64,000 bases of DNA from Sideroxydans sp. (GTDB taxonomy: Bacteria; Pseudomonadota; Gammaproteobacteria; Burkholderiales; Gallionellaceae), in the NCBI GenBank assembly GCA_016124455.1, contig WGNQ01000006.1, positions 48,490 to 112,489 on the forward strand. The letters run 5' to 3'. A model generated the notes under the pieces. The model worked only from the letters and a program-made list of their open reading frames with translations, had not been told where the DNA came from and did no database searches. A program made the position numbers and the translations under genes. Positions 37,465-55,336 of this stretch are shown in pieces. Position 1 is the first letter of the stretch, and each line of letters starts with the position of its first letter.

Positions 37465-37494
37465 TTGCACGGCAAATATTAGCGGTGTTAGAAT
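37465..37494 (+). promoter_or_regulatory. Candidate sigma70 promoter for the cytochrome/half-oxidase genes
   Basis: TTGCAC (37465-37470) and TAGAAT (37489-37494) are separated by 18 bp in an AT-rich gap between tRNA-Pro and the 34-residue ORF. The rest of the 246-bp gap shows no other recognisable feature. Confidence 0.5.
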
Positions 37495-37566
37495 TTGCAA
37501 GATGTAAAAAGAATATAAATATTTTGCTTTTCAATCAGGCAGTTAAATGCGGAGGAGGAATTTGCT

Positions 37567-37671
37567 ATGTTCAGCACTGATGTAACCACAGGCCAGGTTG
37601 TTGTGATGTATGTGATCGCTTTTGGATTCTTTTTCGGTTTGGCTGCAGCGCTGCTCAAAAAGAATTCTTAA
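37567..37671 (+). CDS. Single-helix membrane microprotein (34 aa)
   Basis: A 34-residue ORF preceded by a strong GGAGGAGGAATTTGCT site. It is one hydrophobic helix (VVVMYVIAFGFFFGLAAALL) with a short charged end KKNS. Size and topology resemble CcoQ-like accessory subunits of cbb3 oxidases, but there is no sequence signature. It opens the gene set that includes dihaem and monohaem cytochromes and the first CcoN-fragment protein. Protein expression is inferred from the ribosome-binding site and context. Confidence 0.7.
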   Translation: MFSTDVTTGQVVVMYVIAFGFFFGLAAALLKKNS

Positions 37672-37803
37672 ATAAATCTAATGTTAACAACTCCTAAGTA
37701 AGTCAGCATTAAGTTCCGGAATTTAATTGAGGTTGTGCGACTTGATGTTGCTGGGGATGGTTGTTTAAGGGGTCTTAATTCTAAGAGCAATGGGGGTGAG
37801 GGA

Positions 37804-38577
37804 ATGCGCAAGTCTATAAGCATGTTGTTGTCATGTTTCTTTGGTGCTGCTGCCGTTTTGGTGGCTACCGCAAGTTTTGCAGAAGGTGGCTCTGAAGGGG
37901 GAAACGCTGCGAACGGTAAAGTGATTTTTACTCAGGGCAAGGGTGATGCGGCGCCTTGCATGTCTTGCCATGGAGATAACGGGCAGGGCGATGATGGGAT
38001 GGGTACCCCGAGACTCGCAAATCAGGGGGAGGCTTATATTATTAAGCAGCTGGCTGAGTTTGCCGGCGACAAGCGTGTTCCGACTGGGTTGGGCGCAGTA
38101 ATGAATGGATTTGCCAAGGCGCTGAGCGATCAGGATCGTCGCGATGTGGCGGCCTATCTCAGTTCTATTGATGCGAAACCGCAGTTGTCCGACCTGCAGG
38201 CATTGAAAGAAAGTGGTCAGCAGATTGGCGAGGCCTATCTGGGCAAAGTGCTGGTTGATTATGGTGTGAAAGACAAGGTGCCGGCATGTAAGTCTTGTCA
38301 CCAATATAACGGGCGCGGTGCATTCCCGATGTTCCCGATGATTGGCCAGCAGAGGTATGTATATTTGGTTAACCAGTTGCATAACTGGCGCGCCAATGCT
38401 GCTGATATCGCCAATGGTGCTTACGCACGGACCAACGACCCGGTTGTCGGCGGGGCGGGCATGATGCGCGTGGTGGCTAAGGATCTGACGGATGCGGACA
38501 TCCTGAACGTTGCAGCATTCCTGGCTTCGGCGCCAGCAACAACGGTTGGAAATAGTCGTGTTCCTGAGCAAAAATAA
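37804..38577 (+). CDS. Dihaem cytochrome c, c4-like
   Basis: A 257-residue precursor with a signal peptide (about residues 1-22, ATASFA|EG) and two class I haem domains: CMSCH at residues 52-56 and CKSCH at 162-166. Each domain has a family-like Met region, and YLSSIDAKPQL ends the first. The two-lobed arrangement is that of cytochrome c4, a common donor to cbb3 oxidases. The ATG at 37804 follows GGGGGTGAGGGA. The domains are similar but not recently duplicated. Confidence 0.92.
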   Translation: MRKSISMLLSCFFGAAAVLVATASFAEGGSEGGNAANGKVIFTQGKGDAAPCMSCHGDNGQGDDGMGTPRLANQGEAYIIKQLAEFAGDKRVPTGLGAVMNGFAKALSDQDRRDVAAYLSSIDAKPQLSDLQALKESGQQIGEAYLGKVLVDYGVKDKVPACKSCHQYNGRGAFPMFPMIGQQRYVYLVNQLHNWRANAADIANGAYARTNDPVVGGAGMMRVVAKDLTDADILNVAAFLASAPATTVGNSRVPEQK

Positions 38578-38620
38578 GTCGTTATTCTTGAATGTAGCGA
38601 AGTAGTGGTGTTAATGCGAT

Positions 38621-38649
38621 AAACCCCGCGCCGAGATGGCGTGGGGTTT
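38621..38649 (+). terminator. Hairpin between cytochrome genes, possible terminator or processing site
   Basis: A 12-bp stem (38621-38632 with 38638-38649, one G-T pair) with a five-base loop. It lacks a clear T run, so it may reduce rather than end transcription from the dihaem cytochrome gene into the next one. Confidence 0.5.
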
Positions 38650-38694
38650 ATGGTTTCTGGCAGCAAAAAACGTGGTGTTGGAGGATGTTTCTGC

Positions 38695-39291
38695 ATGGCA
38701 ACTGGTGGTCTCAAGCTGGGCGAAAAGATATTGTTGGGAGTTGTGGCGCTGATTTGCGTGTTTGCTGTGGTGAGTTTCGTCATGCTGGAAGTCTTGCGTG
38801 CGCATTCGGACAAACCTTTGTACCCGGTGACCACACACTTTGATTTTTCTGCTGAAGGTCTGCGTGGTGGCGTAATCTTCCGTAAAATGGAATGCAAGTC
38901 TTGTCACAAAGCCGTGCAAAACGGCACGAATATGGGGCTGGACTTGGATGGTATTGGGTCGAAAAGAAGCTTTAACTATCTCTTCAATTTCTTGAAAAAT
39001 CCAGAGGCGACTTACGCGTCAAAAACCATAGATCATGGTTCGGCACCCAAGGAGGCGGCCTATGTGGCCGAATTGCCTGAGGCTGATTTGCATGCTCTGG
39101 CGACATTCCTTTCCGAATTGCGTGCATCACGGGGGTCGGCTGATGCGCCATTGCCGCCCGGCAAGTCGGGCTTTATTGACGAAATGGTAAAGGTCTGGGC
39201 TCCTGGTAGCTGGAAGTCCGAGTTTCATGATATTCGCCAGGATGAGAAATCAGACAAGAAAGGAGCCGCAAGTGATGCAGCAGGCAAATGA
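38695..39291 (+). CDS. Membrane-anchored monohaem cytochrome c (NorC/CcoO-like)
   Basis: A 198-residue protein with an N-terminal membrane anchor (about residues 11-33, GEKILLGVVALICVFAVV) and a periplasmic cytochrome domain with CKSCH at residues 67-71. The anchor-plus-one-haem layout resembles NorC and CcoO. Its N-terminus (GEKxxLG) recalls the monohaem cytochrome at 46982. The ATG at 38695 follows GGAGGATGTTTCTGC. The 3' end overlaps the CcoN-fragment gene by 17 bp, so the two are likely partners. Confidence 0.88.
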   Translation: MATGGLKLGEKILLGVVALICVFAVVSFVMLEVLRAHSDKPLYPVTTHFDFSAEGLRGGVIFRKMECKSCHKAVQNGTNMGLDLDGIGSKRSFNYLFNFLKNPEATYASKTIDHGSAPKEAAYVAELPEADLHALATFLSELRASRGSADAPLPPGKSGFIDEMVKVWAPGSWKSEFHDIRQDEKSDKKGAASDAAGK

Positions 39292-39787
39292 GCCTTGGGC
39301 TCAGGATAAAGAATATACCAAGTACACATTGTGGTTCATTTACATGTGTATTGTTTACAGCATTATCGGGTTTTCCTGGGGGGCGCTGATGGGAGGTATT
39401 CCGGTGTTCAGGCATTTCGTTGATACGGCACCGCATGGCCGCCTGATTCTGCTGGGGCACGGGCATATAAATTTGCTGGGATGGGTTGAAATGGCCATAT
39501 TTGGCGCGCTCTATTTCGTTATTCCCAGGCTGGTGCGTCGCCCGATATATAGTATGCGTCTGGTTAAGGTGCATTTCTGGACGCACAATTTTGGCCTGCT
39601 GGGGATGGTGACTTTCTTTTGTCTGGCTGGCGCCATCGGCGGCTATGATGTTAGCGATGAAGTGGCGGCGGTGGTTAATCATTTGATGGCGGCTGTGGGA
39701 ATATTCGGCACCTTGGTTTTGTCGGCAAATATTATCTGGGGATACAATCTGTTTCGGACGTGTGCAGGTTGGGAAAAACGGATATGA
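39275..39787 (+). CDS. Four-helix CcoN-fragment-like membrane protein, copy A
   Basis: A 170-residue protein with four hydrophobic helices. The stretch from residue 27 to 85 (IIGFSWGALMGG, then LLGHGHINLLGWVEMAIFGALYFVIPRL, cited in part) aligns by eye with helices I-II of the CcoN-like protein at 43066 (VHVHAVIFGW...YITPAL). His62 would match the low-spin haem ligand of CcoN. Further His residues lie at 64, 100, 104 and 136. The HH copper site and HxH of helix X are absent, so this is not a complete oxidase. A haem b electron-transfer subunit is a reasonable guess. ATG 39275 follows AGGAG. Confidence 0.78.
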   Translation: MQQANEPWAQDKEYTKYTLWFIYMCIVYSIIGFSWGALMGGIPVFRHFVDTAPHGRLILLGHGHINLLGWVEMAIFGALYFVIPRLVRRPIYSMRLVKVHFWTHNFGLLGMVTFFCLAGAIGGYDVSDEVAAVVNHLMAAVGIFGTLVLSANIIWGYNLFRTCAGWEKRI

Positions 39788-40296
39788 ATATAAAGCGCTG
39801 GCCTATTATGCTGGTTTGCTGTGTCGCGATGAGTCTTTATGGTTGCGACGATCGGCTTGCTGGCGGTCTGAAGAAAGGGGAGCTTGCTCCCCGCCTGCAA
39901 ACAAAGACGCTGGCGGATGTGAACGGTGACTTTTCCAGGATTACCACATATCGACAGCCCGATGCGCGCATGTATCAATACTCTCTGGATAAGGCGCTGG
40001 CGCTCGGCAAGCCTATTGTGCTGGAGTTTGCCACTCCTGGACATTGTACGGTCTGTGACGGGCAGTTGCAGATCGTGAAGGCATTGCTGGAAAAGTATCA
40101 ATCGGAAGTGCTGTTTCTGCATATGGATCAATATGAAAATCCGGAGGCATTCAAGGCGTATCGGGTAGAAGGCGATCCTTGGACCTTTATTATTGATAAC
40201 AAGGGTATTGTTCGTTTTCAGCGAGCAGGAAGCATGTTGTATGGCGAGCTTGACCAGGCGATCAAGAACGAATTGATATCAGAGTCCGCGGGTTAG
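39784..40296 (+). CDS. Thioredoxin-like lipoprotein with CTVC active site
   Basis: A 170-residue protein with a lipoprotein signal ending in SLYGC (about residue 20). A thioredoxin fold follows with LEFATPGHCTVCDGQL, redox motif CTVC at residues 88-91, and the cis-Pro region GDPWTFIIDNKG. It is membrane-tethered in the periplasm. It could keep haem-binding or copper-site cysteines reduced during oxidase assembly, the role of SenC/TlpA-like proteins in other oxidase clusters. It overlaps the preceding gene by 4 bp (ATGA), so coupling is likely. Confidence 0.83.
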   Translation: MNIKRWPIMLVCCVAMSLYGCDDRLAGGLKKGELAPRLQTKTLADVNGDFSRITTYRQPDARMYQYSLDKALALGKPIVLEFATPGHCTVCDGQLQIVKALLEKYQSEVLFLHMDQYENPEAFKAYRVEGDPWTFIIDNKGIVRFQRAGSMLYGELDQAIKNELISESAG

Positions 40297-40303
40297 TCAG
40301 ATC

Positions 40304-40756
40304 ATGGTCGGGGATCGCTTCACTCTTGTGCAGGATCGCAAAGGGATGCTGTGGGATTTGTTATTGTACGTCCCCACGGTAACGGCCTTGCTGTCAATGG
40401 CGGCCAAGTTCTGGTATGGCGGCGATGCCAATCTGGCGTACCTGTTGCTCTTTCTGGGCAGTTTCTTCTTCATGACTGGCGCGAATCGTATTCTCAAGAC
40501 GAGATTGATGATATTGCCATCGGCGCCCGTTGCTATCGAGGTAAACGATAAGCACTCGGTCGGTTTGGGCTTGCGCAATGGGGAGAGACTGGACTTGGTG
40601 GCAGATTTGCGCTTTTACCCGGATTACAGTGGCCGCACTTTTGGTATCGCCGGTCTGGATGGGGTGGGGCGGCGGATGCAATTTGTTTTTCACAAGGGGC
40701 AATTCCCCAGCGCCCAAGAATATCAACGCATTGTCGATATATTGGGGAAAGCCTAG
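40304..40756 (+). CDS. Unknown two-helix membrane protein
   Basis: A 150-residue protein with two adjacent hydrophobic helices (about residues 15-32 and 42-60) and a C-terminal soluble beta-rich domain (EVNDKHSVGLGLRNGERLDLV onwards). It resembles the layout of membrane-anchored PH-like domains but no signature is clear. Eight bp after the thioredoxin-like gene, it is the last gene of this set. It converges with the 485-residue membrane protein. Confidence 0.6.
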   Translation: MVGDRFTLVQDRKGMLWDLLLYVPTVTALLSMAAKFWYGGDANLAYLLLFLGSFFFMTGANRILKTRLMILPSAPVAIEVNDKHSVGLGLRNGERLDLVADLRFYPDYSGRTFGIAGLDGVGRRMQFVFHKGQFPSAQEYQRIVDILGKA

Positions 40757-40795
40757 CCCTTCCCTCGACCGTCGCAGGCTGTTTCGTGGCGTTCG

Positions 40796-42601: not shown

Positions 42602-42880
42602 ATGCAAAAAAAATCGTTAACGTCGCGTGCTTTCTGGGTGACGATAATTGCAGGGATGGTCACCGGCATGGGTAATGGTAGCGTGTTTGGTGCGGCGCTG
42701 ATGTGTCTGCTGGGGCGTGGGGAATTCAATGACTGGGGTGGTTGGTTCGGTGCTGCTTATGATCCGTCAACCTTCACTGGTTTCATCGATGCATGCATGA
42801 TTTTGTTTGGTCTCATGTATGTCGTAATTATGGTGGTTGGCTTGAAGCGCCATGACGCGCTTGAAAAAGCCGCTGCATAA
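42602..42880 (+). CDS. Small two-helix membrane protein, first gene of oxidase operon
   Basis: A 92-residue protein with two hydrophobic helices (about residues 9-32 and 60-82) separated by a polar loop GRGEFNDWGGWFGAAYDPSTF. The start follows CGGAGGGGGGGAA. It is encoded first after the strong promoter. No family is recognised. Position and size suggest a structural or assembly subunit of the oxidase. Confidence 0.68.
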   Translation: MQKKSLTSRAFWVTIIAGMVTGMGNGSVFGAALMCLLGRGEFNDWGGWFGAAYDPSTFTGFIDACMILFGLMYVVIMVVGLKRHDALEKAAA

Positions 42881-43065: not shown

Positions 43066-44472
43066 ATGCTCAAGTATTTATTTGCCAAAAATGAGGATAT
43101 CCCGGCCGGGTCGGCGGCGGTGTATTGGGGGTTCTCCGCCATTGTCTGGTTTGTAATTGGAACCGGGTTGGGGTCTTTTAATGCGGCTAAACTCGCTTTC
43201 CCGGATTTCGTGACGGGGAGTGAGTTTTTTGCATTTGGTCATATGCGTCAGGTGCATGTCCATGCGGTAATTTTTGGCTGGATTTCGATGGCGTTTGGTA
43301 TGGCCATGATGTACATCACGCCGGCGTTGGGTAACACCAGGCTGTGGTCCGAGAAGCTGGGTGTGTGGAACGCGTTCCTGTGGAACGTTGGTCTGTCGCT
43401 GGGGCTGACCCTGCTTTGGGCTGGTTTGACATCTGGTCGGGAATATTCGGACTTTATCTGGCCGATCGATCTGTTTATCGCCGTCTTCATGGCGCTGCCG
43501 CTGGCGATCAACGTGTGGATGACTATCCTGACCCGTCGTACGCAAGGTATTTATACGACCAACTGGTTCTTTGCGGCGGCCACCTTTATGGTGATCATCG
43601 TTTTCCTGACAGGCAATCTGCCGGAATTCTTCCACCTTACCGGGTTGACTGAGGCATATCTGACTTGGTGGTTTGCGCACAATGTGCTCGGTCTGTGGAT
43701 TACTCCTGTGGCCGCAGCGATTGCGTATTACACCATTCCGAAGGTGACGGGCAATCCGTTGTATTCGCACCGTATTGGTCACTTGCATTTCTGGTCCGTG
43801 GTTGTGTTTTACTCCACACCTGCGGCGCACCATCTGATGTCGGCTCCGTTGCCCGAGTGGCTGAAGTCCTTCGCCTCGGTGGAGGGTGTGCTGATTCTGG
43901 TTCCGGCCATTGCCTTCGTGTCCAACATTCTGCTGACCATGCAGGGCAAGTGGAACATGTTTGTTGAGAACCTGGAAATTCGTTTCACTGTAACCGGTGT
44001 GTTACTGGCGATTCCGCTGAACATGCAGGGTGGTTTCCAGCAAACTCGTGCGATTAACTGGTACATCCATGGTACAGGCTGGATTGTGGCGCACGCCCAC
44101 TTGGCGCTGTTGGGTTTCTCGACATTCCTGGAAGCTGCCGCGGTTTATCTTGGTCTGCAAAGCCTGATGAAGCGGAAACTGTATTCCTTGACGCTGGGTA
44201 ATATGCATTTCTGGTTGTTGTTGATTGGTTTCAGTATTTACTGGATTTCCATGACGATTGCTGGCCTCATCCAGGGGGCCGGTAAGATCTATGAGGTGCC
44301 GTACATTGATGTTGTGATCGCTGAGCACCCCTATATGATCGCTCGTTGGATTGGCGGAACCTTGGTGTTCATCTCGAACATTATCTGGCTCTATAACATG
44401 TGGATGACTGCCCGCGTTGGAACGATTGTTCCGGTTGGTCGTATGCCGCATGAAATGGCTTACGAGCGCTAA
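43066..44472 (+). CDS. cbb3-like (C-family) haem-copper oxidase catalytic subunit I, CcoN-like
   Basis: A 468-residue protein, about 12 helices. Ligand set by comparison with P. stutzeri CcoN: His64 (low-spin haem), CuB ligands His205 (WWFAHNVLGLW), His255 and His256 (PAAHHLM), cross-link Tyr249, haem b3 His343 and haem b His345 (VAHAHLALLG). Spacings H205-Y249 (44) and Y249-H255 (6) equal those of CcoN. The Tyr argues for O2 reduction, not a NorB-type NO reductase. Residue 321 is Gln (MQGG) where CcoN has conserved Glu323 (FEGP). It precedes the CcoO-like gene by 29 bp. Confidence 0.92.
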   Translation: MLKYLFAKNEDIPAGSAAVYWGFSAIVWFVIGTGLGSFNAAKLAFPDFVTGSEFFAFGHMRQVHVHAVIFGWISMAFGMAMMYITPALGNTRLWSEKLGVWNAFLWNVGLSLGLTLLWAGLTSGREYSDFIWPIDLFIAVFMALPLAINVWMTILTRRTQGIYTTNWFFAAATFMVIIVFLTGNLPEFFHLTGLTEAYLTWWFAHNVLGLWITPVAAAIAYYTIPKVTGNPLYSHRIGHLHFWSVVVFYSTPAAHHLMSAPLPEWLKSFASVEGVLILVPAIAFVSNILLTMQGKWNMFVENLEIRFTVTGVLLAIPLNMQGGFQQTRAINWYIHGTGWIVAHAHLALLGFSTFLEAAAVYLGLQSLMKRKLYSLTLGNMHFWLLLIGFSIYWISMTIAGLIQGAGKIYEVPYIDVVIAEHPYMIARWIGGTLVFISNIIWLYNMWMTARVGTIVPVGRMPHEMAYER

Positions 44473-44501: not shown

Positions 44502-45440
44502 ATGAATTTTAGAGAGTATAAAATTGGTGCCAGGATGTTTGGCTTTGCTCTTGGCGGATCGATGTGTATTACTCTGTTCCTGCCCAGCTTCGATTTCAGG
44601 TCTGCGGTTTCGACAGAGACTGCACTGGACAAGCAGCTTACGGCAGGCTGGGAAACCGGCTGGAACGTATATGATCCGCTCATGCTGGGTCATAACAAAC
44701 CGCTGAAGGTGTTGGTCAAGACCGATCCTAAAAGTGGCCAGCCGCTGGCAGAGGCAACATATGCTTATGTTTACAATGTTGGCACGCCTTTGCCGAATGG
44801 TATTGACCATCCTGACAACTTGGGTGAGTCGGTTGAAAAGCTGAGCGAGACAAAAGGGCAGATCGGTCAGAAGACTGCTAATGGTACGGTTTATCTGATC
44901 AAGCATGAAGGTAACGTTCCTTATATCGAGAATGCCACGGCAACGATGGGTTGGACTCCCGATATGGTGATGAAGGGCGCTTCCGACAGTGACATTTCCC
45001 ACGCGGGGGCAGGTAAGACGCTGTTTGTTCGTGAGGGTTGCTGGTGGTGTCATACACTGTTGCCGGAGCAGACGCAGGACTGGCAGGTGTTTGGTGCTCC
45101 GCCGATGCTGGGTGACTTCAACGGCGAATCGCCAACGGCTTTCGGTTCCGACCGGAAAGCCCCTGACTTGCTGCACGTTGGTTCACGCAACTCGTCTAGG
45201 GAGTGGATGATGCTCCACTTCTTCAACCCGCGTCTGGTGCAGCCGCATTCCATCATGCCTCGTTTTGACTATCTGTGGGGTAAAGTGGATGCCAATGGTC
45301 AGAAAATCGATTATGCGAAATGGCGTACTGAGTATGACGAATATCATGCCGGCAAGCGCATCGATCCGCCAGATGTGCCTATGTACGCGAAGAATAGTGA
45401 GATTCGCGACTTGATCGATTTCATGTTAAGTCTTAAATAA
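44502..45440 (+). CDS. CcoO-like monohaem cytochrome c subunit II
   Basis: A 312-residue protein, much longer than typical CcoO (about 200). It has one N-terminal membrane helix (about residues 10-28) and an extra periplasmic stretch (about residues 35-165). The CcoO-like core follows: REGCWWCHTLLPE with haem site CWWCH at residues 180-184, SDRKAPDLLHVGSRNSSREWMMLHFFNPR and SIMPRFDYLW, which matches CcoO's GPDLARVG...PRSVMP region. The Met in SIMP is the probable axial ligand. It would pass electrons to the CcoN-like haems. ATG follows GGAGAATAATT. Confidence 0.9.
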   Translation: MNFREYKIGARMFGFALGGSMCITLFLPSFDFRSAVSTETALDKQLTAGWETGWNVYDPLMLGHNKPLKVLVKTDPKSGQPLAEATYAYVYNVGTPLPNGIDHPDNLGESVEKLSETKGQIGQKTANGTVYLIKHEGNVPYIENATATMGWTPDMVMKGASDSDISHAGAGKTLFVREGCWWCHTLLPEQTQDWQVFGAPPMLGDFNGESPTAFGSDRKAPDLLHVGSRNSSREWMMLHFFNPRLVQPHSIMPRFDYLWGKVDANGQKIDYAKWRTEYDEYHAGKRIDPPDVPMYAKNSEIRDLIDFMLSLK

Positions 45441-46981: not shown

Positions 46982-47470
46982 ATGAAGCGAGGTGAAAAGG
47001 TAGTACTGGGCATTATTGCCGTCGTTGTCCTGATCCTGATGGCCCGGAATTTCTGGAGCATAGAAACGACAAAGGTGAAAGACAGGGGCATTCCATATTA
47101 CAGCACGGCTACTCCTGAACAGGCACGCGATGCAATGGTCATTTATGACCAAAATAACTGCAAGAAATGCCATTCGCTATGGACGGTGAAGGATCTGATG
47201 GAAAGTGTACCGGCCCCAATTCTGGACGGCATCGGTTCGTTACATGACGAAGAGTGGTTTTACCGATACTTTTCGGCAGCAGATCCGCAATCAATTGTTC
47301 CTTCACGTCTCAAAAAAGAATGGCGCATGCCGTCATACCAGCAGTTGCCGGAGCATGACCGCCATGTGCTGGCCAGTTACATGGCGAGTCTGAAGGTGAA
47401 AGACTGGTACCTTGAAGAAACACGCAAGGCCGAGTACGAAAAGCTAACAGGTAAGGCATATAAACCATGA
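46982..47470 (+). CDS. Membrane-anchored monohaem cytochrome c
   Basis: A 162-residue protein with an N-terminal anchor (MKRGEKVVLGIIAVVVLILM) and one haem site CKKCH at residues 60-64. A possible axial Met lies in EWRMPSYQQLP. The opening xxGEKxxLG is shared with the cytochrome at 38695, suggesting paralogy. It may take the electron-entry role normally played by CcoP. It overlaps the next gene by 4 bp. Confidence 0.88.
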   Translation: MKRGEKVVLGIIAVVVLILMARNFWSIETTKVKDRGIPYYSTATPEQARDAMVIYDQNNCKKCHSLWTVKDLMESVPAPILDGIGSLHDEEWFYRYFSAADPQSIVPSRLKKEWRMPSYQQLPEHDRHVLASYMASLKVKDWYLEETRKAEYEKLTGKAYKP

Positions 47471-47934
47471 CGACTCCTCCGGCAACAACCAGGGCACGTT
47501 TTAACAAAGGCGTGGCTGCCATCCTGGTGGGATGCGCGGTCAACCATTTCGGTGATCGGTTGCTGGGGGTCAGGATCGAGCTGTTTCATGGGATACAAAC
47601 GTTCAGTTTCTTGTGGATGCTGGATATGTTTGTGCTGCCATTCATCGTGGGAATCCTTGTTGCTGTCATGTTCGGGCTCGGGGGAAAGTGGCTGTGTTAT
47701 TTCCCTCCGCTGATAGTGCGGGCAATCAGTTATTTTGAAATTTCACATCTGACCGGAGTGCCTGATGGTTCATCACTCCTGCCTTTGGGGTGGTGGGGTT
47801 TTTTTGTGATTCTGGTGATAGAGGCTTCGGCCTTTGGCGGGGTCATAGGAGAAATCATGGTTAAAGGAACTTACGGCCGACGCCCGCGCCAAATGGTCTA
47901 TAAAGATTCATTTACCGAGGCTGACGAAGAATAA
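47467..47934 (+). CDS. Unknown membrane protein (155 aa)
   Basis: A 155-residue protein with three to four hydrophobic segments (about residues 15-30, 47-68, 72-92, 105-128) and conserved-looking His and Cys residues (NHFGDRLLG, ELFHGIQTF, KWLCYFPP). It overlaps the monohaem cytochrome gene (ATGA) and abuts the FGE-fold gene (2 bp), so it is translationally tied to both. No family recognised. Could be a membrane partner for the cytochrome. Confidence 0.65.
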   Translation: MTTPPATTRARFNKGVAAILVGCAVNHFGDRLLGVRIELFHGIQTFSFLWMLDMFVLPFIVGILVAVMFGLGGKWLCYFPPLIVRAISYFEISHLTGVPDGSSLLPLGWWGFFVILVIEASAFGGVIGEIMVKGTYGRRPRQMVYKDSFTEADEE

Positions 47935-47936: not shown

Positions 47937-49016
47937 ATGACGGTATCTCCTGCAAAAAATCGACCCCATCCAGATACTGATGGGCGCGCGAAACGAAAAC
48001 GCTATCTGTCTGCCACCATCGTTACCTGCATTGTTCTGCTTATGATTGGCGGGACATTGCATGTGGTAAAAATCGGCGCCGGACGGATGGAGGATATGCG
48101 CAAGCTGGCCAGCTATGACCTGCATGACGAGAACAAGCGTGTCCGTGCAGCAGGTGAAGACATCATGCTGCATTACGAACATGAGGAAGGCATTAATCGG
48201 GTGGTCGGCTATACCGTTGCCGAAGCCGAGAATTTGTTGCCAAAAGCCAAGTGGAAAGAGCTGGACACGACAATACTGATTCCTGCCGGCAGCTTTCTTA
48301 TGGGAACCAATATCGAGCGTGCGGATGCACAGAACCACCCGCAGCATACCGTCACGTTGCCCGCTTACAGGATAGACAAATATCCCGTAACCAATGCGCA
48401 ATATGCAAGATTTGTTGCTGCAACATCGCATCGTCCGCCGTCGAGCTGGAAAAACGGCAGGATTCCTGAAGGAGAAATCCTGCGTCCAGTGACGCTGGTG
48501 GACTGGTACGATGCTGCGGCCTATGCCAAGTGGGCAGGGAAGCGCTTGCCTACCGAAGCTGAGTATGAAAAAGCCGGGAGATCGACAGATGGCCGGACTT
48601 GGCCGTGGGGCAACAAAATGGATCCGACGCGGCTGAACACTTATTACAATGTGGGCTCGTCAACCAACGTTGATGCATATCCCAAAGGCGCAAGCCCCTA
48701 TGGCGTGATGGACTTGTCCGGCAATGTCAACGAGTGGGTTGCAGATGATTTTCTTCCTTATCCGGGAACTGATGCTCCGAAGGAGTTGTTCCAGGGGAAA
48801 ATCGGCCGTGCTACAAGCGAAAAAGACCAGGCAATGAAAGTGGTGGATTTGGTGCCAATCAGTATACGTTACAAGGCGCTGCGTGGGGGATCGTGGAAGA
48901 GCGACCCATTCTCGACGGCGCTGTATCACCGCAATTTTGCGCTTCCGAACATGGCTTCCGACTTTTTCGGTTTCCGTTGTGCGGAAGACGTGAAGAAACA
49001 GGCTAAAGGGAAGTAA
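47937..49016 (+). CDS. Membrane-anchored formylglycine-generating-enzyme-fold protein, catalytic Cys missing
   Basis: A 359-residue protein. One N-terminal helix (about residues 22-43) is followed by a linker and an FGE-sulfatase (SUMF1) domain from about residue 110: IPAGSFLMGTN, DKYPVTNAQYARFVAAT, PVTLVDWYDAAAYAKWAGKRLPTEAEYEKA (cited in part), YGVMDLSGNVNEWVAD, RGGSW and GFRCAED. True FGEs carry a Cys pair after RGGSW; here that stretch is KSDPFSTALYHRN with no Cys. It is probably structural or binding, like NirV-type members near respiratory genes. Confidence 0.87.
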   Translation: MTVSPAKNRPHPDTDGRAKRKRYLSATIVTCIVLLMIGGTLHVVKIGAGRMEDMRKLASYDLHDENKRVRAAGEDIMLHYEHEEGINRVVGYTVAEAENLLPKAKWKELDTTILIPAGSFLMGTNIERADAQNHPQHTVTLPAYRIDKYPVTNAQYARFVAATSHRPPSSWKNGRIPEGEILRPVTLVDWYDAAAYAKWAGKRLPTEAEYEKAGRSTDGRTWPWGNKMDPTRLNTYYNVGSSTNVDAYPKGASPYGVMDLSGNVNEWVADDFLPYPGTDAPKELFQGKIGRATSEKDQAMKVVDLVPISIRYKALRGGSWKSDPFSTALYHRNFALPNMASDFFGFRCAEDVKKQAKGK

Positions 49017-49018: not shown

Positions 49019-49249
49019 ATGCGAAGAGGGCTGGTACGTTTTTCGGTGACTCTGTTTTTGACGTTGTTTTGGGCAAGTGAGAGTTATGCCGCTGTAGACA
49101 GTTACCGTTATTTGCATGTGACTGTGGAAACCCCGTGGACCATTTTCCTGTTTCTGTTGGTGGGGGTGATGGCGCCTTTTGTGTTGATGGGTTTGCTGGT
49201 ATGGCGTTTTGCCGGACGCAAGAGCAAGCCGGAAGAGGGAAAAGAATGA
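49019..49249 (+). CDS. Small protein with signal peptide and one membrane helix (76 aa)
   Basis: A 76-residue protein. An N-terminal signal-like helix (to ESYA|AV, about residue 24), a short periplasmic segment (VDSYRYLHVTVETPW), then one helix (about residues 41-64) and a basic tail. No family recognised. It starts 2 bp after the FGE-fold gene and overlaps the next gene by 4 bp, so it belongs to the same operon. Confidence 0.68.
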   Translation: MRRGLVRFSVTLFLTLFWASESYAAVDSYRYLHVTVETPWTIFLFLLVGVMAPFVLMGLLVWRFAGRKSKPEEGKE

Positions 49250-49644
49250 TGCTGGTCGCAACAAATAGTTCGCGTATAAGCTGGATAATGGCCAGCTGTG
49301 TGATGCTGCTGGCCGCGATGCTGATATTTGCAGCCCCGATGGCGCATGCTGCTGATGCCGCGAAAGGAAGCAGCAGCACACAAATACTTGAGGCCTTTGA
49401 CCAGCAACAGGTGCAGCGCGTAAACGATGGCAGCACGCTGAGCAACCACAAGAAGCAGGTCATCATGTTTTCTCTAGGCGTCCCATTGCTTATCCTGTTG
49501 CTGATTACCGGCGGCCTGGGGATAGCCATGGGGGTATATGGCAAGCAGCACCTGTTCGTTACCCATATGCTGTTTGCCGGACTGACCGTTTCGCTCGCAG
49601 TGGTTCATGTGGTCGTTGGTCTGGTCTGGTTTTTCCCATTTTAA
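49246..49644 (+). CDS. Small membrane protein with signal peptide (132 aa)
   Basis: A 132-residue protein: signal peptide to about residue 35 (MAHA|AD), a periplasmic helix (ILEAFDQQQVQRVNDGSTLSN, cited in part) then two membrane helices near residues 70-92 and 100-130 with GKQHLFVTHMLFAGL and VVHVVVGLVW. Conserved-looking His in TH and VVHV could bind haem but this is not shown. It ends the second sub-operon. A 7-bp GC hairpin (49655-49672) follows but lacks a T tail. Confidence 0.65.
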   Translation: MMLVATNSSRISWIMASCVMLLAAMLIFAAPMAHAADAAKGSSSTQILEAFDQQQVQRVNDGSTLSNHKKQVIMFSLGVPLLILLLITGGLGIAMGVYGKQHLFVTHMLFAGLTVSLAVVHVVVGLVWFFPF

Positions 49645-49734: not shown

Positions 49735-52371
49735 GTGCTTAAGGAAGAAATTCGACCATTGATCGCTAGCTGCCGATATTGGCTGTCCGGATATGGGTTG
49801 CTGGTAATGCTTTATGGTTTGTCGGGTCTGACCAGCGTGGCGTATGAGGTGCTGTGGGTACGTATGCTGTCGCTGCAATTTGGCGTCAGTGTATTTGCGG
49901 TTGTGGTAACGGTTGCGGCTTTCATGGCGGGGCTGGGGGGGGGCAGTTTATTGGCGGCACGCAAAATTGCGCAGATCAGCAGGCCACTCTTGTTGCTCGC
50001 GTTGCTGGAGGGTGGTATTGCGCTGTATGCGTTGCTGTTGCCATTGCTGCTGCAAGTCACCTCGGGATGGATTGAACATGTCGCGTCACAGCTCTCCCTG
50101 TTCCAATGGTATGGTTTGCTGGCAGGTGCCGCACTGATTTTGCTGATGTTGCCTGCTTTTGCCATGGGGGCAGGTTTCCCGCTGATACTCGCCGCATTGG
50201 AAGGTAAAGCTGCCCGTCTCGGGCGAATATATGGATTAAATACGCTGGGTGCGGCATGCGGCGCATTGCTTCCGCTCTGGTTATTGCCGACACTGGGATG
50301 GGATGGGGCGATCAGGGTGGTTGCCGGATTGGGTGTGCTGGTGGCTTTTGCATTCCTGCTGCTTGCATTGCGACGGAACACTAAACCAGCCATTGCGGCC
50401 GAGCGGGTAGTGGCACAGCGCCCGCCGTGGTCGGCGCTGCTGGCTTATGGCGGAATCGGCGCAGCGAGTCTGATTCTGGAAATTGGCTGGACACGACTGT
50501 TCGGCATGGTCATGCTGCGCACCGAGTATGTGCTGGCGGTGATTCTGGCGGCATTCCTGCTGGGTATCGGGGCGGGCAGCCTGCTCGCCCCGCGCCAGCA
50601 TCGGCAGAGCTGGTTCGTGGCGCTACCTCTCCTTGCATGTGGTTTTGCCTTGCTGAGTTTATGGTTGCTGCCGGAACTGTCGGCATGGGTGGAACGCGCC
50701 GAGTTCGCATCGTTATTCAGCGCGCTTGCAACGCAAGGCATGATGCTTCTGCTGCTGACGCTGCCGGTCACACTGGTGTTGGGAGCATGGCTGCCGTTGC
50801 TGCACAGCCGTTTCGGCGGTGGCGGCATGTGGCTGTATGGTGCGAATTCTCTGGGAGCTGCGCTCGGTGCGGTACTTGCCGGCGTATTGCTGATTCCAGT
50901 ATGGGGCAGTGCTGCGACGATCATCGTGGCGGCATTGCTGTTGCTGGTGCTGGGGCTTAGCTGGTCCCGGCGGCGTGCAGCATGGTTGGCGCTGCCGGTA
51001 TTCATTATTGCGGCATGGCCAGTGAGGCAATTGCCGCCGGTCAGCGCCCTGCTGCCGCAGATACTGGCCAATAGCAAAACCCTGTATCTGTATGAAGATG
51101 CGGTTTCGATCACGCATGTGGTGGAGCAGCCGGATGGGCAGCGTTTGCTGCTGACTGACCTGCAGCGCATGGATGCCTCGACCGATCCGACCGCGGTGTT
51201 TGTGCAGTCCAATCAGGCACGGCTCCCGCTGTTGCTGCATGAGCAACCACACTCGGTATTGTTCCTGGGGCTGGGGACGGGCATTTCGGTTTCCGGTTCG
51301 CTGCCGTTTCCTGATTTGCAGCGCAACGCCGTCGAGTTGTCACAAGGTGCGATTGTCGCAGCGGATCGCTGGTTTGCCCCGGTGAATCATGATGTAATGC
51401 GGCAGACCAAGGTGCAACGCGACGATGCGCGGCACTTTCTGAGCGCTTCGCGTAACCAGTACGATGTCATTATCGGCGATGTTTTTCACCCTGACCTGGC
51501 AGGCTACAGCTCACTCCTGTCGTTGCAGCAATTTCAGCGTGCACGCGATCATTTAAGCACGCATGGCGTATTCGTACAGTGGTTGGCGCTGAATCAGTTC
51601 GACGCCGAATCGCTACGTGTGGTTTTCCGGACGTTCCGCCGGGTTTTTCCGGATGCGCAATTGTTTCTTGACGGCATGCATTTGGCACTAGTCGGCCCGA
51701 AGCAGGGGTTTACCGGTGCGACAGGCTTGTGGCATAACCTGCAACGACTGTCGGCTGTACAGCAGAATGAGGCAACGGCAGGAGAAGGTGGCTGGACATG
51801 GCTGGGGCGCTACTGGGGACCGATTCCGGACAGCCCGGGGGTGGAGCAGGATGAGTGGTCGCCGGTGCTTGAGTATCGTTTGCCGCGGGCCCGCTATGCG
51901 GGCGGACTGGATGTAATGTCGTCGCTGCAAACCTTGTTGCAGTTGCGGCCTGGCATGCGCAGTGCGGAAGCATCGCTGGGGATACGCGATGTCGACCGGG
52001 AAGCTTTTGAACGCGCATATGCCGCGACCGAGCTAATGGTGCGCAGCTGGCTTGCGGATATGCAGGGAGCAACTCCGCAGGCAAACCGGCTGATACGGCT
52101 CGCTTACCAGGCGAACCCGCAAGATCGCTGGGTGGCTTACGCACTGGCGGACAGCATGTTTGCATCGTTGGGGCAGGCGCGCGCGCATGGCCTGGATGAG
52201 CAACAGGCATTGCAAGCAATCCTCCGGGTCTGTCCGCAACATGTGGAGGCATTGCGTGCGCTGTGGAGGCTGCAGCGTGCTGAGGGCGATATGCGGACGG
52301 CGTCCCTTACCTGGGCGCGCTTGCTGGCGTTGAGCCCGCTGGACCGCGAGGCGCGTGCGGCAGCGAATTAG
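49735..52371 (+). CDS. Fused polytopic membrane / spermidine-synthase-like protein
   Basis: An 878-residue protein. Residues 1 to about 440 form about 12 to 13 helices (YGLSGLTSVAYEVLWVRML, cited in part, is the typical opening). Residues 505-660 form a spermidine-synthase-like Rossmann domain (HSVLFLGLGTGISVSGSL, DDARHFL, YDVIIGDVFHP). The end (from about 750) is helical repeat-like. Family members are widespread but mostly uncharacterised; no aminopropyl acceptor is implied. The GTG start follows AGGACTTAATCC. It separates the oxidase genes from ccoG. Confidence 0.85.
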   Translation: MLKEEIRPLIASCRYWLSGYGLLVMLYGLSGLTSVAYEVLWVRMLSLQFGVSVFAVVVTVAAFMAGLGGGSLLAARKIAQISRPLLLLALLEGGIALYALLLPLLLQVTSGWIEHVASQLSLFQWYGLLAGAALILLMLPAFAMGAGFPLILAALEGKAARLGRIYGLNTLGAACGALLPLWLLPTLGWDGAIRVVAGLGVLVAFAFLLLALRRNTKPAIAAERVVAQRPPWSALLAYGGIGAASLILEIGWTRLFGMVMLRTEYVLAVILAAFLLGIGAGSLLAPRQHRQSWFVALPLLACGFALLSLWLLPELSAWVERAEFASLFSALATQGMMLLLLTLPVTLVLGAWLPLLHSRFGGGGMWLYGANSLGAALGAVLAGVLLIPVWGSAATIIVAALLLLVLGLSWSRRRAAWLALPVFIIAAWPVRQLPPVSALLPQILANSKTLYLYEDAVSITHVVEQPDGQRLLLTDLQRMDASTDPTAVFVQSNQARLPLLLHEQPHSVLFLGLGTGISVSGSLPFPDLQRNAVELSQGAIVAADRWFAPVNHDVMRQTKVQRDDARHFLSASRNQYDVIIGDVFHPDLAGYSSLLSLQQFQRARDHLSTHGVFVQWLALNQFDAESLRVVFRTFRRVFPDAQLFLDGMHLALVGPKQGFTGATGLWHNLQRLSAVQQNEATAGEGGWTWLGRYWGPIPDSPGVEQDEWSPVLEYRLPRARYAGGLDVMSSLQTLLQLRPGMRSAEASLGIRDVDREAFERAYAATELMVRSWLADMQGATPQANRLIRLAYQANPQDRWVAYALADSMFASLGQARAHGLDEQQALQAILRVCPQHVEALRALWRLQRAEGDMRTASLTWARLLALSPLDREARAAAN

Positions 52372-52438: not shown

Positions 52439-53758
52439 ATGCCTAGCGGAACCAATCACAAATCCATTGCCGGGATACCAATCAAGGTCATTGGCAAACC
52501 TGGTGTGCGCCAGGGTTTTCACTGGAAACGCCGGTCGGTACAGATACTGGCTGTCGTATTGGCCATCCTGATCCCGGCCAGCGGCCTGTTCCGCATAGAT
52601 CCTGAAGTAGGCGCTTTCGTTGTGGTCAACCGGCAGATCTGGTTTTCCGATTTCTTCCTGATAGCCGGGACCTGGGTATTCCTGGCCAGTTGCTTGGTGT
52701 TGTTGTATTCGACTGCGGGAACTGTGTTCTGCGGCTGGGTTTGTCCGCAGAACACCTTGGCAGAGTGGGCCAATAACCTGACGCGCAAGTTGCTGGGCAA
52801 GCGTGCCGAGGTGAGTTTGACCGGCGAGGCACCAAAAGTCGCGGCGGCAAAGAACAAGCTCGTAAATTGGCTGCTGCTGGGATTGATCCTGCTGGGAACG
52901 GCGATGGTCTTTGCGCTTATCCCGTTGTTCTACTTTTATCCGCCGCAACTGGTCTGGGCTTTTGTAACCTTCCAGCCGGATGCGCAGCTAGCCAGATCGC
53001 TGCACTGGATTTATACGGTAAGTGTGCTGGTGATTTTCTTGGATATCGCCGTGATCCGTCATTTCTGGTGCCGCTTTTCGTGTATCTACCGGGTATGGCA
53101 GCATTCGTTCAAGACCAAGCAGACGCTGCATATTAAATATGATGACAGCCGTGCTGACGAATGCGCCAAGTGCAATTATTGTGTCACTGCCTGCTTTATC
53201 GACCTCGATCCGCGTAAAACTGCGATCTATGACAGCTGCATCAATTGTGGGGAATGTATCGATGCCTGTGACCGGCTGCACGCCAAGCAGGGCGTCCCGG
53301 GTCTGTTGCGCTTTGAAATAGGGGAGCGCGAGCAGAAAGGTGGCGGGAAATTCCGTACCGCGGCAGTATCCCTGTTTGCCCGGACCAAGTGGGCGACGCT
53401 GTTCGGGGGGCTGGGGGCGGTAATGTTCGTCTGGGGCCTGTGGACTTACCAACCTTATCATGTCGTGGTTTACCGCGCGGAAACGCAGCATGCGCAGACT
53501 ATCCAGGACTACCGTATTGCGGTTTCCAACAAGCTGTATCGTCCGGCGGAACTGAGTGTGCATGTGCAGGGGTTGCCGCAGGGCAGCTACCACCTGAGTG
53601 CCGGAGATATCAAGCTGTTGCCGGCCGGGCATGGCTCTCTGACCCTGTCCATTGCGCGAAGCTTGCCGCGGGGCTTATATTCAATCATGGTGGACGTGTC
53701 GGCAGCGGATGGCTGGGCAGGGCATTTCCATATACAGCATTATTCTGAACAGGAGTGA
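52439..53758 (+). CDS. ccoG: cbb3 oxidase accessory Fe-S protein CcoG/FixG
   Basis: A 439-residue membrane protein with about five helices. Cysteine motifs include FCGWVCPQNTLAEW near residue 100, CAKCNYCVTACF and CINCGECIDACD at about residues 243 and 265, enough for two 4Fe-4S clusters. The first cluster's usual CP is CF here. A C-terminal immunoglobulin-like domain follows. CcoG reduces copper for cbb3 assembly in other bacteria. ATG 52439 gives the normal start. Its presence supports the C-family assignment of the neighbouring oxidase. Confidence 0.94.
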   Translation: MPSGTNHKSIAGIPIKVIGKPGVRQGFHWKRRSVQILAVVLAILIPASGLFRIDPEVGAFVVVNRQIWFSDFFLIAGTWVFLASCLVLLYSTAGTVFCGWVCPQNTLAEWANNLTRKLLGKRAEVSLTGEAPKVAAAKNKLVNWLLLGLILLGTAMVFALIPLFYFYPPQLVWAFVTFQPDAQLARSLHWIYTVSVLVIFLDIAVIRHFWCRFSCIYRVWQHSFKTKQTLHIKYDDSRADECAKCNYCVTACFIDLDPRKTAIYDSCINCGECIDACDRLHAKQGVPGLLRFEIGEREQKGGGKFRTAAVSLFARTKWATLFGGLGAVMFVWGLWTYQPYHVVVYRAETQHAQTIQDYRIAVSNKLYRPAELSVHVQGLPQGSYHLSAGDIKLLPAGHGSLTLSIARSLPRGLYSIMVDVSAADGWAGHFHIQHYSEQE

Positions 53759-53762
53759 AATG

Positions 53763-54167
53763 ATGACTGCAGATAATGAAAAAGTACCCTTGTCAAAGGT
53801 AACGTCGAACTGGGGTGAACAGCCGGAAGACCACTTTGGCTATAGTTCAGACGAAGAGCGTCTGGCGAAGCGGGGTCTCGAGGATTGGGAGCTGGTGAAC
53901 AAGATACCGGAGTCGCAAAAAGGCATTCCATACTGGTTTGTAGCCGTGATCGTTGTTGTGCTGCTGGTGGCGGTGGGGTTGAGTTTCCCGTTCTGGGGGA
54001 ATCGTCCGGGTCAAGTGCGTGAATGGTTCGACTGGGGGTTTGTGGCCGCACTGTTTTATATCGCGGTAGCCGCCACGTTGGTTTACTTTATGGTGCAGCT
54101 TTATGGTTCGTCTACCGGCGGCAGGCTGGATTCGGATGAGACTGAGAAATCGTCGGATGATGAATAA
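53763..54167 (+). CDS. Two-helix membrane protein (FPxWGxRP family, short form)
   Basis: A 134-residue protein. An acidic N-terminus (about 60 residues) precedes helix 1 (about 61-80), the FPFWGNRPG motif, a 13-residue loop and helix 2 (about 98-118). The tail is acidic. It matches the 208-residue protein at 45457 in the EDW/EDLG...helix...FPxWGxRP...helix order but lacks the long periplasmic insert. The second of two ATGs (53763) has ideal spacing from AGGAG. It overlaps the next gene by 8 bp. Confidence 0.72.
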   Translation: MTADNEKVPLSKVTSNWGEQPEDHFGYSSDEERLAKRGLEDWELVNKIPESQKGIPYWFVAVIVVVLLVAVGLSFPFWGNRPGQVREWFDWGFVAALFYIAVAATLVYFMVQLYGSSTGGRLDSDETEKSSDDE

Positions 54168-54558
54168 ACGGGTGAGCGTAAATACTGCGAAAGCTGTCGG
54201 CGCGGCCTTGTTGGCCGTGCTGTTGTCCGCATGTAGCGGGGCGGCCGATAATATACCGCCCCAGAAGTGGCAGAACCTGGATGTACGCGTGGAAACCAGA
54301 CCCAGTCCGCCGCGTACGGGGATGAATGAAATTCTGGTGATGGTGACAGATGAACGCGGCCGGCCGGGCTACAACTTGCTGGTGTCGTTACGTGGCAGCG
54401 ATGAAGATCGGTGGGTACAGGCAATTGAAGATGGGCAGGTGGGGGTGTACCGCAGGGCGGTAGCTTTCCCCCCGGGAGCCAAGGCTGTACTGCAGATCCA
54501 GATCAAACGCGGCAATGAGGAAAGCGAATTACGTTTTCCGCTGCAGATGCAGCCTTAG
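54160..54558 (+). CDS. FixH/YtkA-like lipoprotein
   Basis: A 132-residue lipoprotein with lipobox LLSAC at about residue 23. The mature part, NEILVMVTDERGRPGYNLLVSLRG and VGVYRRAVAFPPGAKAVLQIQI, fits the Ig-like FixH/YtkA fold. FixH-like proteins help copper or haem insertion into oxidases. Here the FixH domain is tethered by lipid instead of a membrane helix. It overlaps the upstream gene, and its stop overlaps the convergent CcoN-fragment gene by 4 bp. Confidence 0.75.
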   Translation: MNKRVSVNTAKAVGAALLAVLLSACSGAADNIPPQKWQNLDVRVETRPSPPRTGMNEILVMVTDERGRPGYNLLVSLRGSDEDRWVQAIEDGQVGVYRRAVAFPPGAKAVLQIQIKRGNEESELRFPLQMQP

Positions 54559-55067
54559 GTGCTGCGTGGCTTGGAGGCCACCGTCAGCAGGATATTGACG
54601 AGATAGATGCAAAATCCCGTAGCCATGATGATGCCGGAACTGGCAACGATCGGGCCATAGTAGTGGTGGATATGCGGCATCATTTGCGGGTCATTGAGTA
54701 ATGCATTCCCCTCCCAAACGCCGAATACGATTTGTGTGATGTAAAAATAGAATTGGCCGGTTGCCGTCCACCACAATGAGTGATTGACCAGTCGCAATGA
54801 GTAAATCGACTTGCCGCTGAATATGGGCAGCAAATAATATGAGGTGCCCATGGCAAGTATTACCACGCCGCCAACCAGATTCATGTGGGCATGAGCCAGT
54901 GGGTCGATCATGTGTCCGGGGCCGCCGTATGGGCTGCCGATAGAGTCCAGCCAGGCGCGGATGGGCGGCAATACTTGCAACATGCCGTGTATGGCGCCAA
55001 TGAAAAAAGAAACGGCGGAAACCAGCAAGAATTTAACTAGATGGGGATGTTCGGTATTTAAGCTCAT
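54555..55067 (-). CDS. Four-helix CcoN-fragment-like membrane protein, copy B
   Basis: A 170-residue protein, exactly the length of copy A (39275). Four helices; the segment DPLAHAHMNLVGGVVILAMG (residues 56-75) corresponds to CcoN helix II, with His59 matching the low-spin haem ligand, and SIYSLRLVNHSLWW resembles copy A's IYSMRLVKVHFW. More His lie at 61, 96, 132, 134 and 135. There is no CuB HH site. It is possibly a haem b subunit or a partner for a monohaem cytochrome. The 3' end overlaps the convergent FixH-like gene. Confidence 0.78.
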   Translation of the reverse strand: MSLNTEHPHLVKFLLVSAVSFFIGAIHGMLQVLPPIRAWLDSIGSPYGGPGHMIDPLAHAHMNLVGGVVILAMGTSYYLLPIFSGKSIYSLRLVNHSLWWTATGQFYFYITQIVFGVWEGNALLNDPQMMPHIHHYYGPIVASSGIIMATGFCIYLVNILLTVASKPRST

Positions 55068-55096
55068 TGCTGGAAGGACTGGGATGCGGGAATAAT

Positions 55097-55126
55097 AAAA
55101 GCACGGCCGCGAGGACCGTGCTTTTT
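55097..55126. terminator. Hairpin with flanking A/T tracts, possible bidirectional terminator
   Basis: A 10-bp stem (55097-55106 with 55116-55125) with AAAA/TTTT ends. On the minus strand it lies between the 59-residue ORF and copy B, so it may attenuate read-through. Confidence 0.75.
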
Positions 55127-55156
55127 GAATACATCAATGACAGACTGGCGCGCAGA

Positions 55157-55336
55157 TCAACCGTGGATCGAGTCGCTATCTGTTCGGAACGGTGCTTCGT
55201 AAGTAGATGTACGGCTAAGGTCTTCACCAGCCATTTTTTGTGCTTCGCGAAGCCGTTGTATACCCAAGCTGCCACCTGAAAGGGAAACGATAATGCCAAC
55301 GACGAAAATTCCGATGGGAACCAGCATATCCAGCAT
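55157..55336 (-). CDS. Single-helix microprotein (59 aa)
   Basis: A 59-residue ORF on the minus strand with a strong AAGGAGAGAATCTT site. One helix (MLVPIGIFVVGIIVSLSGGSL, cited in part) then a charged tail REAQKMAGEDLSRTS. It lies 89 bp upstream of copy B, with a hairpin between. No family recognised. It is the fourth microprotein of the region; its dedicated ribosome-binding site supports it being real. Confidence 0.7.
   Translation of the reverse strand: MLDMLVPIGIFVVGIIVSLSGGSLGIQRLREAQKMAGEDLSRTSTYEAPFRTDSDSIHG

Follow-up and report, generated by a model that had tools for sequence, protein, structure and literature searches.

One form of the cbb3-type cytochrome c oxidases bears the label distal, which reportedly goes back to Ducluzeau et al. 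(2008). The form has already been reported in iron-oxidizing bacteria (PMC8788666, PMC7029218, PMC10734462). Sideroxydans lithotrophicus ES-1 has two cbb3 clusters, proximal and distal, unlike in their subunit composition, and the distal one, highly expressed, is marked by about threefold higher expression than the other and by an increase in thiosulfate culture at mid-log phase (PMC8788666). The present analysis concerns a gene set at positions 37804-55336 of a stretch of 64,000 nucleotides (called here the window) from the genome of a Sideroxydans sp. of the family Gallionellaceae (contig WGNQ01000006.1). Its genes, referred to as g01 through g24, surround a CcoN-like and a CcoO-like subunit of a cbb3-like oxidase and include no recognizable CcoP.

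The genome of S. lithotrophicus has two full CcoN genes, one of them, 89% identical to that of the window, lying in this same cassette, and the other (32%) lying beside ccoP. Taken together with the two clusters reported for that organism (PMC8788666), this makes it very likely that the window locus is the distal form, CcoNO; that the distal cluster of S. lithotrophicus is the one without CcoP we infer from the place of its ccoP. The oxidase itself is already known; what is new is the fixed cassette, together with its unstudied parts. The initial annotation, made from the window alone, had suggested that the set may be a single respiratory complex or supercomplex with new subunits. Membership of all these proteins in one complex is a possibility only, some of them being candidates for assembly factors instead. 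As to the composition, a literature search found, in the text covered, no description for distal cbb3 of the twenty-gene composition, of heme-free CcoP-like proteins, of CcoN fragments, or of the channel changes described below. The distal form as such is less new than the annotation supposed, having been reported in the three papers cited at the outset.

The canonical (proximal) CcoNOQP oxidase and the window set share the CcoN fold, the heme and CuB ligands, the active-site tyrosine, a monoheme CcoO, and a CcoG-like neighbor. They differ in that no diheme CcoP, CcoI, or CcoH was found for the window set, whose CcoN has only about 30-35% identity to the canonical protein, carries Y237H, S240G, I241H, and E323Q, and is accompanied by more than 12 extra genes.

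A second described system must be considered as well. Field et al. (2015) are said to have described a conserved redox gene cluster in Zetaproteobacteria. Its genes cyc1 (for a diheme cytochrome), PC2, and PC3 are so named in PMC7029218, and to judge from the 14 loci outside the family described below, the cluster probably overlaps the window cassette. A cyc1 homolog, Slit_2657, is reported to be associated with a cbb3 cluster (PMC8788666) and to lie above the 95th percentile in the proteome (PMC12016527). In PMC4643136, Cyc1 is listed for ES-1, PV-1, M34, and EKF-M39 and not for Ferriphaselus or Gallionella ES-2. It is likely that g01, the diheme cytochrome with which the locus begins, is the Cyc1 of iron oxidizers.

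The explanation favored here, with a probability of roughly two in three, is that the locus encodes a cbb3-type (C-family) oxidase in which CcoN and CcoO operate without CcoP, the work of CcoP likely being done by the cassette's own cytochromes and by two heme-free proteins.

A conserved cassette

The genes of the set are all open reading frames at about the positions given here and below (on the + strand unless noted). At the center stand g08 (43066..44472), the CcoN-like catalytic subunit of 468 residues, which matches COX1 (E 1.7e-76) and the structure 3mk7 (E 5e-60), and g09 (44502..45440), a CcoO-like monoheme subunit of 312 residues with a CWWCH motif and M252, which matches FixO (E 4.2e-17). 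The picture drawn earlier, of some twenty genes around one complete subunit like CcoN and another like CcoO, is accurate. Neighboring genes from g08 to g18 are separated by gaps of at most 81 bases, with 4-base overlaps at g14-g15 and g17-g18, and over the locus as a whole four neighboring pairs overlap by 4-8 bases. Ribosome-binding sites, which had been called strong throughout, are good for most of the genes and not for all.

The set was followed through 102 related loci: those of the best 80 of 200 relatives (CcoN identity 82-93%), 8 further Gallionellaceae loci, and 14 found through g10. The records of the best 80 bear the names Gallionella, Nitrotoga, Ferrovum, Sideroxydans, Chromatiaceae, and others, and the 102 loci span Gallionellaceae, Nitrotoga, Ferrovum, gammaproteobacteria, and Mariprofundia. 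Genes were positioned by their stop codons, and a gene was counted only in those loci with room for it. By this measure, g09 is in place in 101/101 loci, g10 in 100/100, g11 in 96/96, g12 in 90/95, g13 and g14 each in 90/94, g15 in 86/92, g16 in 88/92, g17 in 84/88, g18 in 81/85, g19 in 79/80, g20 in 75/77, and g21 in 69/72. An order that recurs in 102 loci with so few exceptions goes far beyond chance, and the gene set is a real conserved unit. The initial annotation had offered the composition as a unit as its own surmise and had asked whether homologous oxidases occur without the CcoN-fragment, FPxWGxRP, and microprotein genes; in the relatives, the homologous oxidases do come with them.

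The two ends of the cassette are less regular. The module g01-g05 varies in its place (any of g02-g05 is found in 77/102 loci, with g03 in 65 of those 77), and at the other end g23 occurs in 18/102 loci and g24 in 10/102, many loci ending before the place where these genes would be. There is also a disparity in the degree of conservation: across the best 80 relatives, CcoN is 82-93% identical, as against medians of 43-69% for the other cassette proteins. This excess may reflect an unusually strong constraint on CcoN or a different history of the CcoN gene alone.

A set of 398 Pseudomonadota genomes, drawn evenly, was searched for g10 and for this CcoN (E <= 1e-150). The former was found in 44 genomes, the latter in 41, and both in 39. 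This leaves two genomes (G279 and G373) with CcoN and no g10 and five (G247, G267, G322, G328, and G382) with g10 and no CcoN, the g10 hits in G267, G328, and G382 being weak. Outside the family of the window, all hits of the draw fall in three families, and contigs of two of these match proteins of Mariprofundus erugo, Mariprofundus sp. EBB-1, Mariprofundaceae, Mariprofundales, and Zetaproteobacteria. From the 43 genomes outside the family with a g10 match, 14 loci were taken. All 14 have CcoN, CcoO, g10, and g11, and 12 of them have g12-g18 in the same order; the two that fall short are L184, a short contig, and L187, in which the cassette stops at g11. A match to g01 is found in 6 of the 14.

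Canonical cco loci of the window's own family served as controls. In 12/12, only CcoN, CcoO, CcoG, and (in 11/12) a c-type cytochrome match proteins of the cassette, and none of the 12 contains a best match to g02-g07, g10-g19, or g21-g24. A P1B ATPase frame is present in 10/12 canonical loci (nine with the CcoI-like start CxHCG, L144 with another) and in 0/102 loci of the CcoP-less type.

A probable division of the work of CcoP

No ccoP over the cut-off was found in the genome that holds the window (2.23 Mb in 23 contigs, 89% complete), where the best match is g01, whose 31.9 bits fall short of the cut-off, 180. FixH (ccoH) has no match in that genome. Just one copper P1B ATPase exceeds the family cut-off there; its identity to a CcoI from Gallionellaceae is 41%, over an alignment that starts only at residue 100, and its own N-terminus has a GMHCASC motif. 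A search of the genome for PF12156, the N-terminal domain of CcoI, was uninformative, as no control sequence matched. The earlier observation that CcoP, CcoI, and CcoH are missing from the window can therefore be extended: within an 89% complete genome, no ccoP or ccoH, no close ccoI, and no standard set of the three was found elsewhere. COX1 has one full match in the genome and two fragments (the second below the cut-off), and all three lie within the window.

Heme motifs are found in four proteins of the set: two in g01 and one each in g02, g14, and CcoO. The first (37804..38577) is a periplasmic diheme c4-like cytochrome (Cytochrom_C, E 2.9e-20) with two CxxCH motifs in 66/68 sequences and conserved Met100 and Met221. 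The second (38698..39291, start codon uncertain) is a membrane-anchored monoheme cytochrome c (Cytochrom_C, E 4.6e-7; CxxCH in 66/68), and so is g14 (46982..47470; Pfam cytochrome c), with CxxCH in 94/94 sequences and a conserved Met116. These counts agree with the two anchored monoheme cytochromes and one diheme c4-like cytochrome first read from the sequence.

The two proteins that had been singled out for the motif FPxWGxRP, g10 (45457..46083; FPLWGQRP) and g21 (53760..54167; FPFWGNRP), are both free of heme: the heme motif is absent from 100/100 copies of g10 and 70/70 of g21. By profile comparison (hhalign probability 89%, E 2e-6), the two are evidently homologous to each other. FixP_N, the anchor of CcoP, is matched at E <= 1 by 14 of 18 g10 members (best 0.002, below the cut-off), the next family by 2 of 18. 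An acidic residue lies six positions ahead of the proline with which the helix begins in 30/30 canonical CcoP, in 97/100 g10 (E35 in the window), and in 60/70 g21. The glutamate near the anchor proline of CcoP is, we presume, the residue through which protons enter. On such grounds, g10 would appear to resemble, weakly, the membrane anchor of CcoP.

How might the parts work together? Electrons donated by Fe(II), by nitrite, or by sulfur compounds would pass to the diheme g01, from there to a membrane-anchored monoheme cytochrome (g14 or g02), and on to the heme of CcoO. From CcoO they would reach heme b and then the heme b3-CuB site, where O2 would be reduced to water. On the side of proton entry, g10 (perhaps also g21) may keep the transmembrane anchor of CcoP along with its acidic residue, and the channel inside CcoN may have been rebuilt by Y237H, S240G, and I241H (in P. 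stutzeri numbers). The CcoN-fragment proteins may carry heme b, as extra subunits or as heme donors, and the CcoG-like, thioredoxin-like, and FGE-fold proteins (FGE, formylglycine-generating enzyme) may see to assembly or to the insertion of copper and heme.

A bolder version of this explanation is tentative, with the odds somewhat against it. It would make the locus a second cbb3 architecture, in which CcoP was dismantled: its anchor and proton-entry acid would survive as two heme-free proteins, electron entry would be left to separate cytochromes, the channel of CcoN would have been rebuilt with histidines, and CcoN-derived four-helix heme b proteins and other membrane proteins would have been added, giving a large complex dedicated to lithotrophy.

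The functional core could instead be small, with CcoN and CcoO joined by just one or two small subunits, and most genes of the cassette could encode factors for assembly or cofactor insertion that stand in for CcoI, CcoH, and CcoS. The lack of a P1B ATPase frame in all 102 loci, the absence of FixH from the genome, and the partial match, at 41%, of the nearest CcoI are all to be expected if this were so, and the CcoG-like, CcoS-like, thioredoxin-like, and FGE-fold proteins do look like maturation proteins. However, the conserved heme motifs of g14, g02, and g01 fit electron carriers, and g10, in place in every locus with room for it, resembles an anchor of CcoP. A small core is somewhat unlikely.

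Active site and genomes in which no ccoP was found

The positions of CcoN were mapped on the P. stutzeri protein (3mk7). H60, E122, H207, H243, Y251, H257, H258, H345, and H347 are kept in 102/102 sequences, so that every one of them has the features of a canonical cbb3 subunit I: bis-histidine ligation of heme b, a histidine for heme b3, three CuB histidines, and the active-site tyrosine. Five other positions are altered, also in 102/102: histidine stands for Y237, glycine for S240, histidine for I241, asparagine for T321, and glutamine for E323. Canonical CcoN keeps Y237, S240, and T321 in 12/12 sequences, with valine (11) or isoleucine (1) at 241 and glutamate (10) or aspartate (2) at 323. 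Y237 and S240 are, we assume, residues of the proton channel of cbb3, the analog of the K-channel. The residues of oxygen reduction are thus intact, and the lining of the channel differs.

The retention of the heme and CuB ligands and of the tyrosine in all 102 sequences argues for O2 reduction. A nitric oxide (NO) reductase derived from the C family might be suspected, since E323 is replaced by glutamine and T321 by asparagine, the channel residues differ throughout, and the NorB structure 4xyd is a distant match. To our knowledge, however, NO reductases are marked by loss of the active-site tyrosine, and Y251 is present, along with all the CuB histidines, in 102/102 sequences. On this ground the identification is rejected, and the genomes of Nitrotoga considered next, in which no canonical CcoN was found (A-family oxidases not having been searched), also speak against it, the genus respiring O2; the idea must be counted very improbable. 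A literature search turned up nothing usable on CcoP-less C-family oxidases, on K-channel residues, or on relatives of NO reductase.

Among 120 genomes of the family that were searched, this CcoN occurs in 38 (37, counting the genome of the window, at identities of at least 86%, and another with a partial copy at 79%). Thirteen of the 38 also have a ccoP over the cut-off, together with a canonical CcoN that is 30-33% identical and, in G068, broken into two pieces. In the remaining 25, no canonical CcoN is found among the matches listed, which go down to E ~1e-8, a level far weaker than that of a whole canonical CcoN, and no ccoP exceeds the cut-off. Since these genomes have the one CcoN and show neither the other nor its ccoP, the enzyme should function without CcoP.

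Nitrotoga is a case in point. This CcoN is present in 15 of its 19 genomes (one partial), and neither a canonical CcoN nor a ccoP over the cut-off was found in any of the 15, A-family oxidases having been left unsearched. G057 and G066, which are single-contig genomes, are among these. A predicted cbb3-type oxidase is the reported destination of electrons from nitrite in Ca. Nitrotoga fabula (PMC6050957). Of the family's nitrite-oxidizer genomes, just 15.4% are reported to contain cydAB (PMC10734462). Together with the absences just described, these reports imply that the CcoP-less enzyme should serve as the terminal oxidase of the Nitrotoga nitrite oxidizers. The situation in Mariprofundia may be otherwise: ccoNOP has been annotated in Mariprofundus ferrooxydans PV-1 (PMC3179512), so these bacteria may hold ccoP as well, or the name may have gone to another cytochrome.

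Scores against NCBIfam, at 227 bits for CcoN (cut-off 583), 64 for CcoO (201), and 119 for CcoG (317), place the three proteins of the locus as relatives of the canonical ones, well outside the curated families. That the locus encodes a canonical cbb3, with its ccoP, ccoI, and ccoH located elsewhere or hidden in the 11% missing from a genome that is 89% complete, is scarcely credible, being largely refuted by these low scores and by the 25 relatives of 38, single-contig Nitrotoga genomes among them, that show neither a ccoP over the cut-off nor a canonical CcoN.

Several points weigh against the favored explanation, that of a CcoP-less oxidase served by separate cytochromes and two heme-free proteins. 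The kinship of g10 to the CcoP anchor is a matter of sub-threshold matches: g10 of the window scores 15.2 bits with FixP_N, where the cut-off is 24.9. Only 1 of 21 members of g21 matches that family. Precomputed assignments of PF14715 are found on 4 of 120 homologs listed in one search and on 0 of 120 in another, hhalign gave no match of g10 or g21 to 30 canonical CcoP of Gallionellaceae, and sequence searches of the PDB with g10 matched nothing relevant. In 10/70 copies of g21, a non-acidic residue (leucine in seven) takes the place of the acid. The order of electron carriers and the roles of the channel residues are what we infer from the parts. Gene order has its exceptions: L033, L040, and L045 are rearranged, L187 departs from g12 on, L083 and L081 lack g15, L184 lacks g12, L186 lacks g21, and L027 has g20 and g21 elsewhere. 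The A-family oxidases passed over in Nitrotoga belong here too. Finally, the window's own genome has cytochrome bd oxidase subunit I (G000:C12:44876-46360, L188), so the CcoP-less oxidase need not be the sole oxidase of its organism.

In the three rearranged loci, CcoN has kept g12, g13, and g14 close by, and the later half of the cassette lies elsewhere as a collinear cluster of its own (g15-g22 in one genome, g15-g24 in another, and g15-g20, up to the end of the contig, in the last). In all three, g13 and the cytochrome g14 are turned to the other strand, a recombination experiment performed by nature.

Other genes of the locus and what the cassette may mean

Two proteins had been read as fragments of CcoN. 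One of them, g03 (39275..39787), is a four-helix protein with a conserved HxH that matches COX1 (E 3.4e-14), and its structural model (predicted local distance difference test score, pLDDT, 91.7) best matches CcoN of cbb3 structures (TMq 0.78-0.80). H62, H64, H100, and H104 are kept in all 25 aligned copies, and because the HxH pair resembles the pair of heme ligands in CcoN, binding of heme b by g03 is predicted. The other, g23 (54555..55067, - strand), carries HAHxN, with H59 and H61 conserved in 18 sequences; its COX1 score of 28.4 bits is below the cut-off of 34.8.

Some of the remaining proteins call maturation to mind. Such is g04 (39784..40296), a thioredoxin-like lipoprotein with CxxC (AhpC-TSA, E 1.2e-5, just below cut-off; Thioredoxin, E 5.9e-5) in which C21, C88, and C91 are conserved and which may insert copper or heme, a task for which CcoI and CcoH are missing. 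The CcoG-like 4Fe-4S membrane protein g20 (52442..53758) has Pfam 4Fe-4S domains and is the protein scored above with TIGR02745. A membrane-anchored protein with the FGE fold, g16 (47937..49016), matches FGE-sulfatase (E 4.3e-52), as the initial reading of both proteins had it. An active formylglycine-generating enzyme presumably has a catalytic cysteine pair. No such pair is conserved in g16 (C31, in the N-terminal helix, and C348 are conserved, and a cysteine at 197 is found in 34/88), which makes formylglycine formation unlikely, and g16 is rejected as an active enzyme of that kind. With these may be grouped g19 (49735..52371), a fused protein like those of the major facilitator superfamily (MFS) and spermidine synthase (NF037959, 76.3 bits, cut-off 40): the CcoG-like, FGE-fold, thioredoxin-like, and MFS/spermidine-synthase-like proteins may all be assembly factors.

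Two of the first identifications fared less well. A protein like CcoS with a tail is indeed encoded by g13 (46682..46972), and its likeness to CcoS is weak (FixS E 0.012, below the cut-off, with no NCBIfam match). The lipoprotein g22 (54160..54558), with C25 of its lipobox conserved, had been called FixH-like and has no match to FixH.

Several small membrane proteins, the microproteins of the initial annotation, are present as expected. The main row of genes opens with g07 (42602..42880), a small membrane protein of 92 residues found in 101/102 loci. A single-helix protein of 44 residues, the size of CcoQ, is encoded by g11 (46120..46254), and membrane proteins of 109, 155, and 76 residues by g12 (46336..46665), g15 (47467..47934), and g17 (49019..49249). 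The model of g15 (pLDDT 83.4) gave no hit at E <= 0.001 among PDB folds. In g18 (49246..49644), another small membrane protein, H107 and H121 are conserved, two histidines 14 residues apart near the end of the protein; we take this spacing to be close to that of the helices that hold two b hemes. The last gene, g24 (55157..55336, - strand), encodes a protein of 59 residues. At the other end, g05 (40304..40756) encodes a membrane protein without a Pfam match, present in 66 of the 77 loci that have any of g02-g05. Between g05 and g07 lies an extra gene (40796-42253, - strand) for a multi-helix membrane protein of 485 residues, likewise without a Pfam match; relatives of it occur in 46/102 loci, at differing places.

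Just after the locus, at 55859-58850, lie a PilS/PilR-like sensor kinase and a sigma-54-type response regulator, as read from the translations. A PilS-like match also adjoins the cassette in S. lithotrophicus, Sideroxyarcus emersonii, and Sideroxydans sp. CL21 (L147, L146, and L150), and for this reason the PilS-like neighbor might regulate the cassette.

Through the cassette, about a dozen uncharacterized proteins acquire a strong functional link. Cyc1, which has been used as an iron-oxidation gene, may turn out to belong to this oxidase cassette and not to iron oxidation proper. Nature also provides here a test of the purpose of CcoP, and an indication of which proton-channel residues may be open to replacement. 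Given that the Nitrotoga genomes examined that hold the enzyme show no canonical CcoN or ccoP, and that Sideroxydans and Mariprofundus carry it as well, the CcoP-less enzyme would be a point at which nitrite and iron oxidation in these groups end in the reduction of O2.

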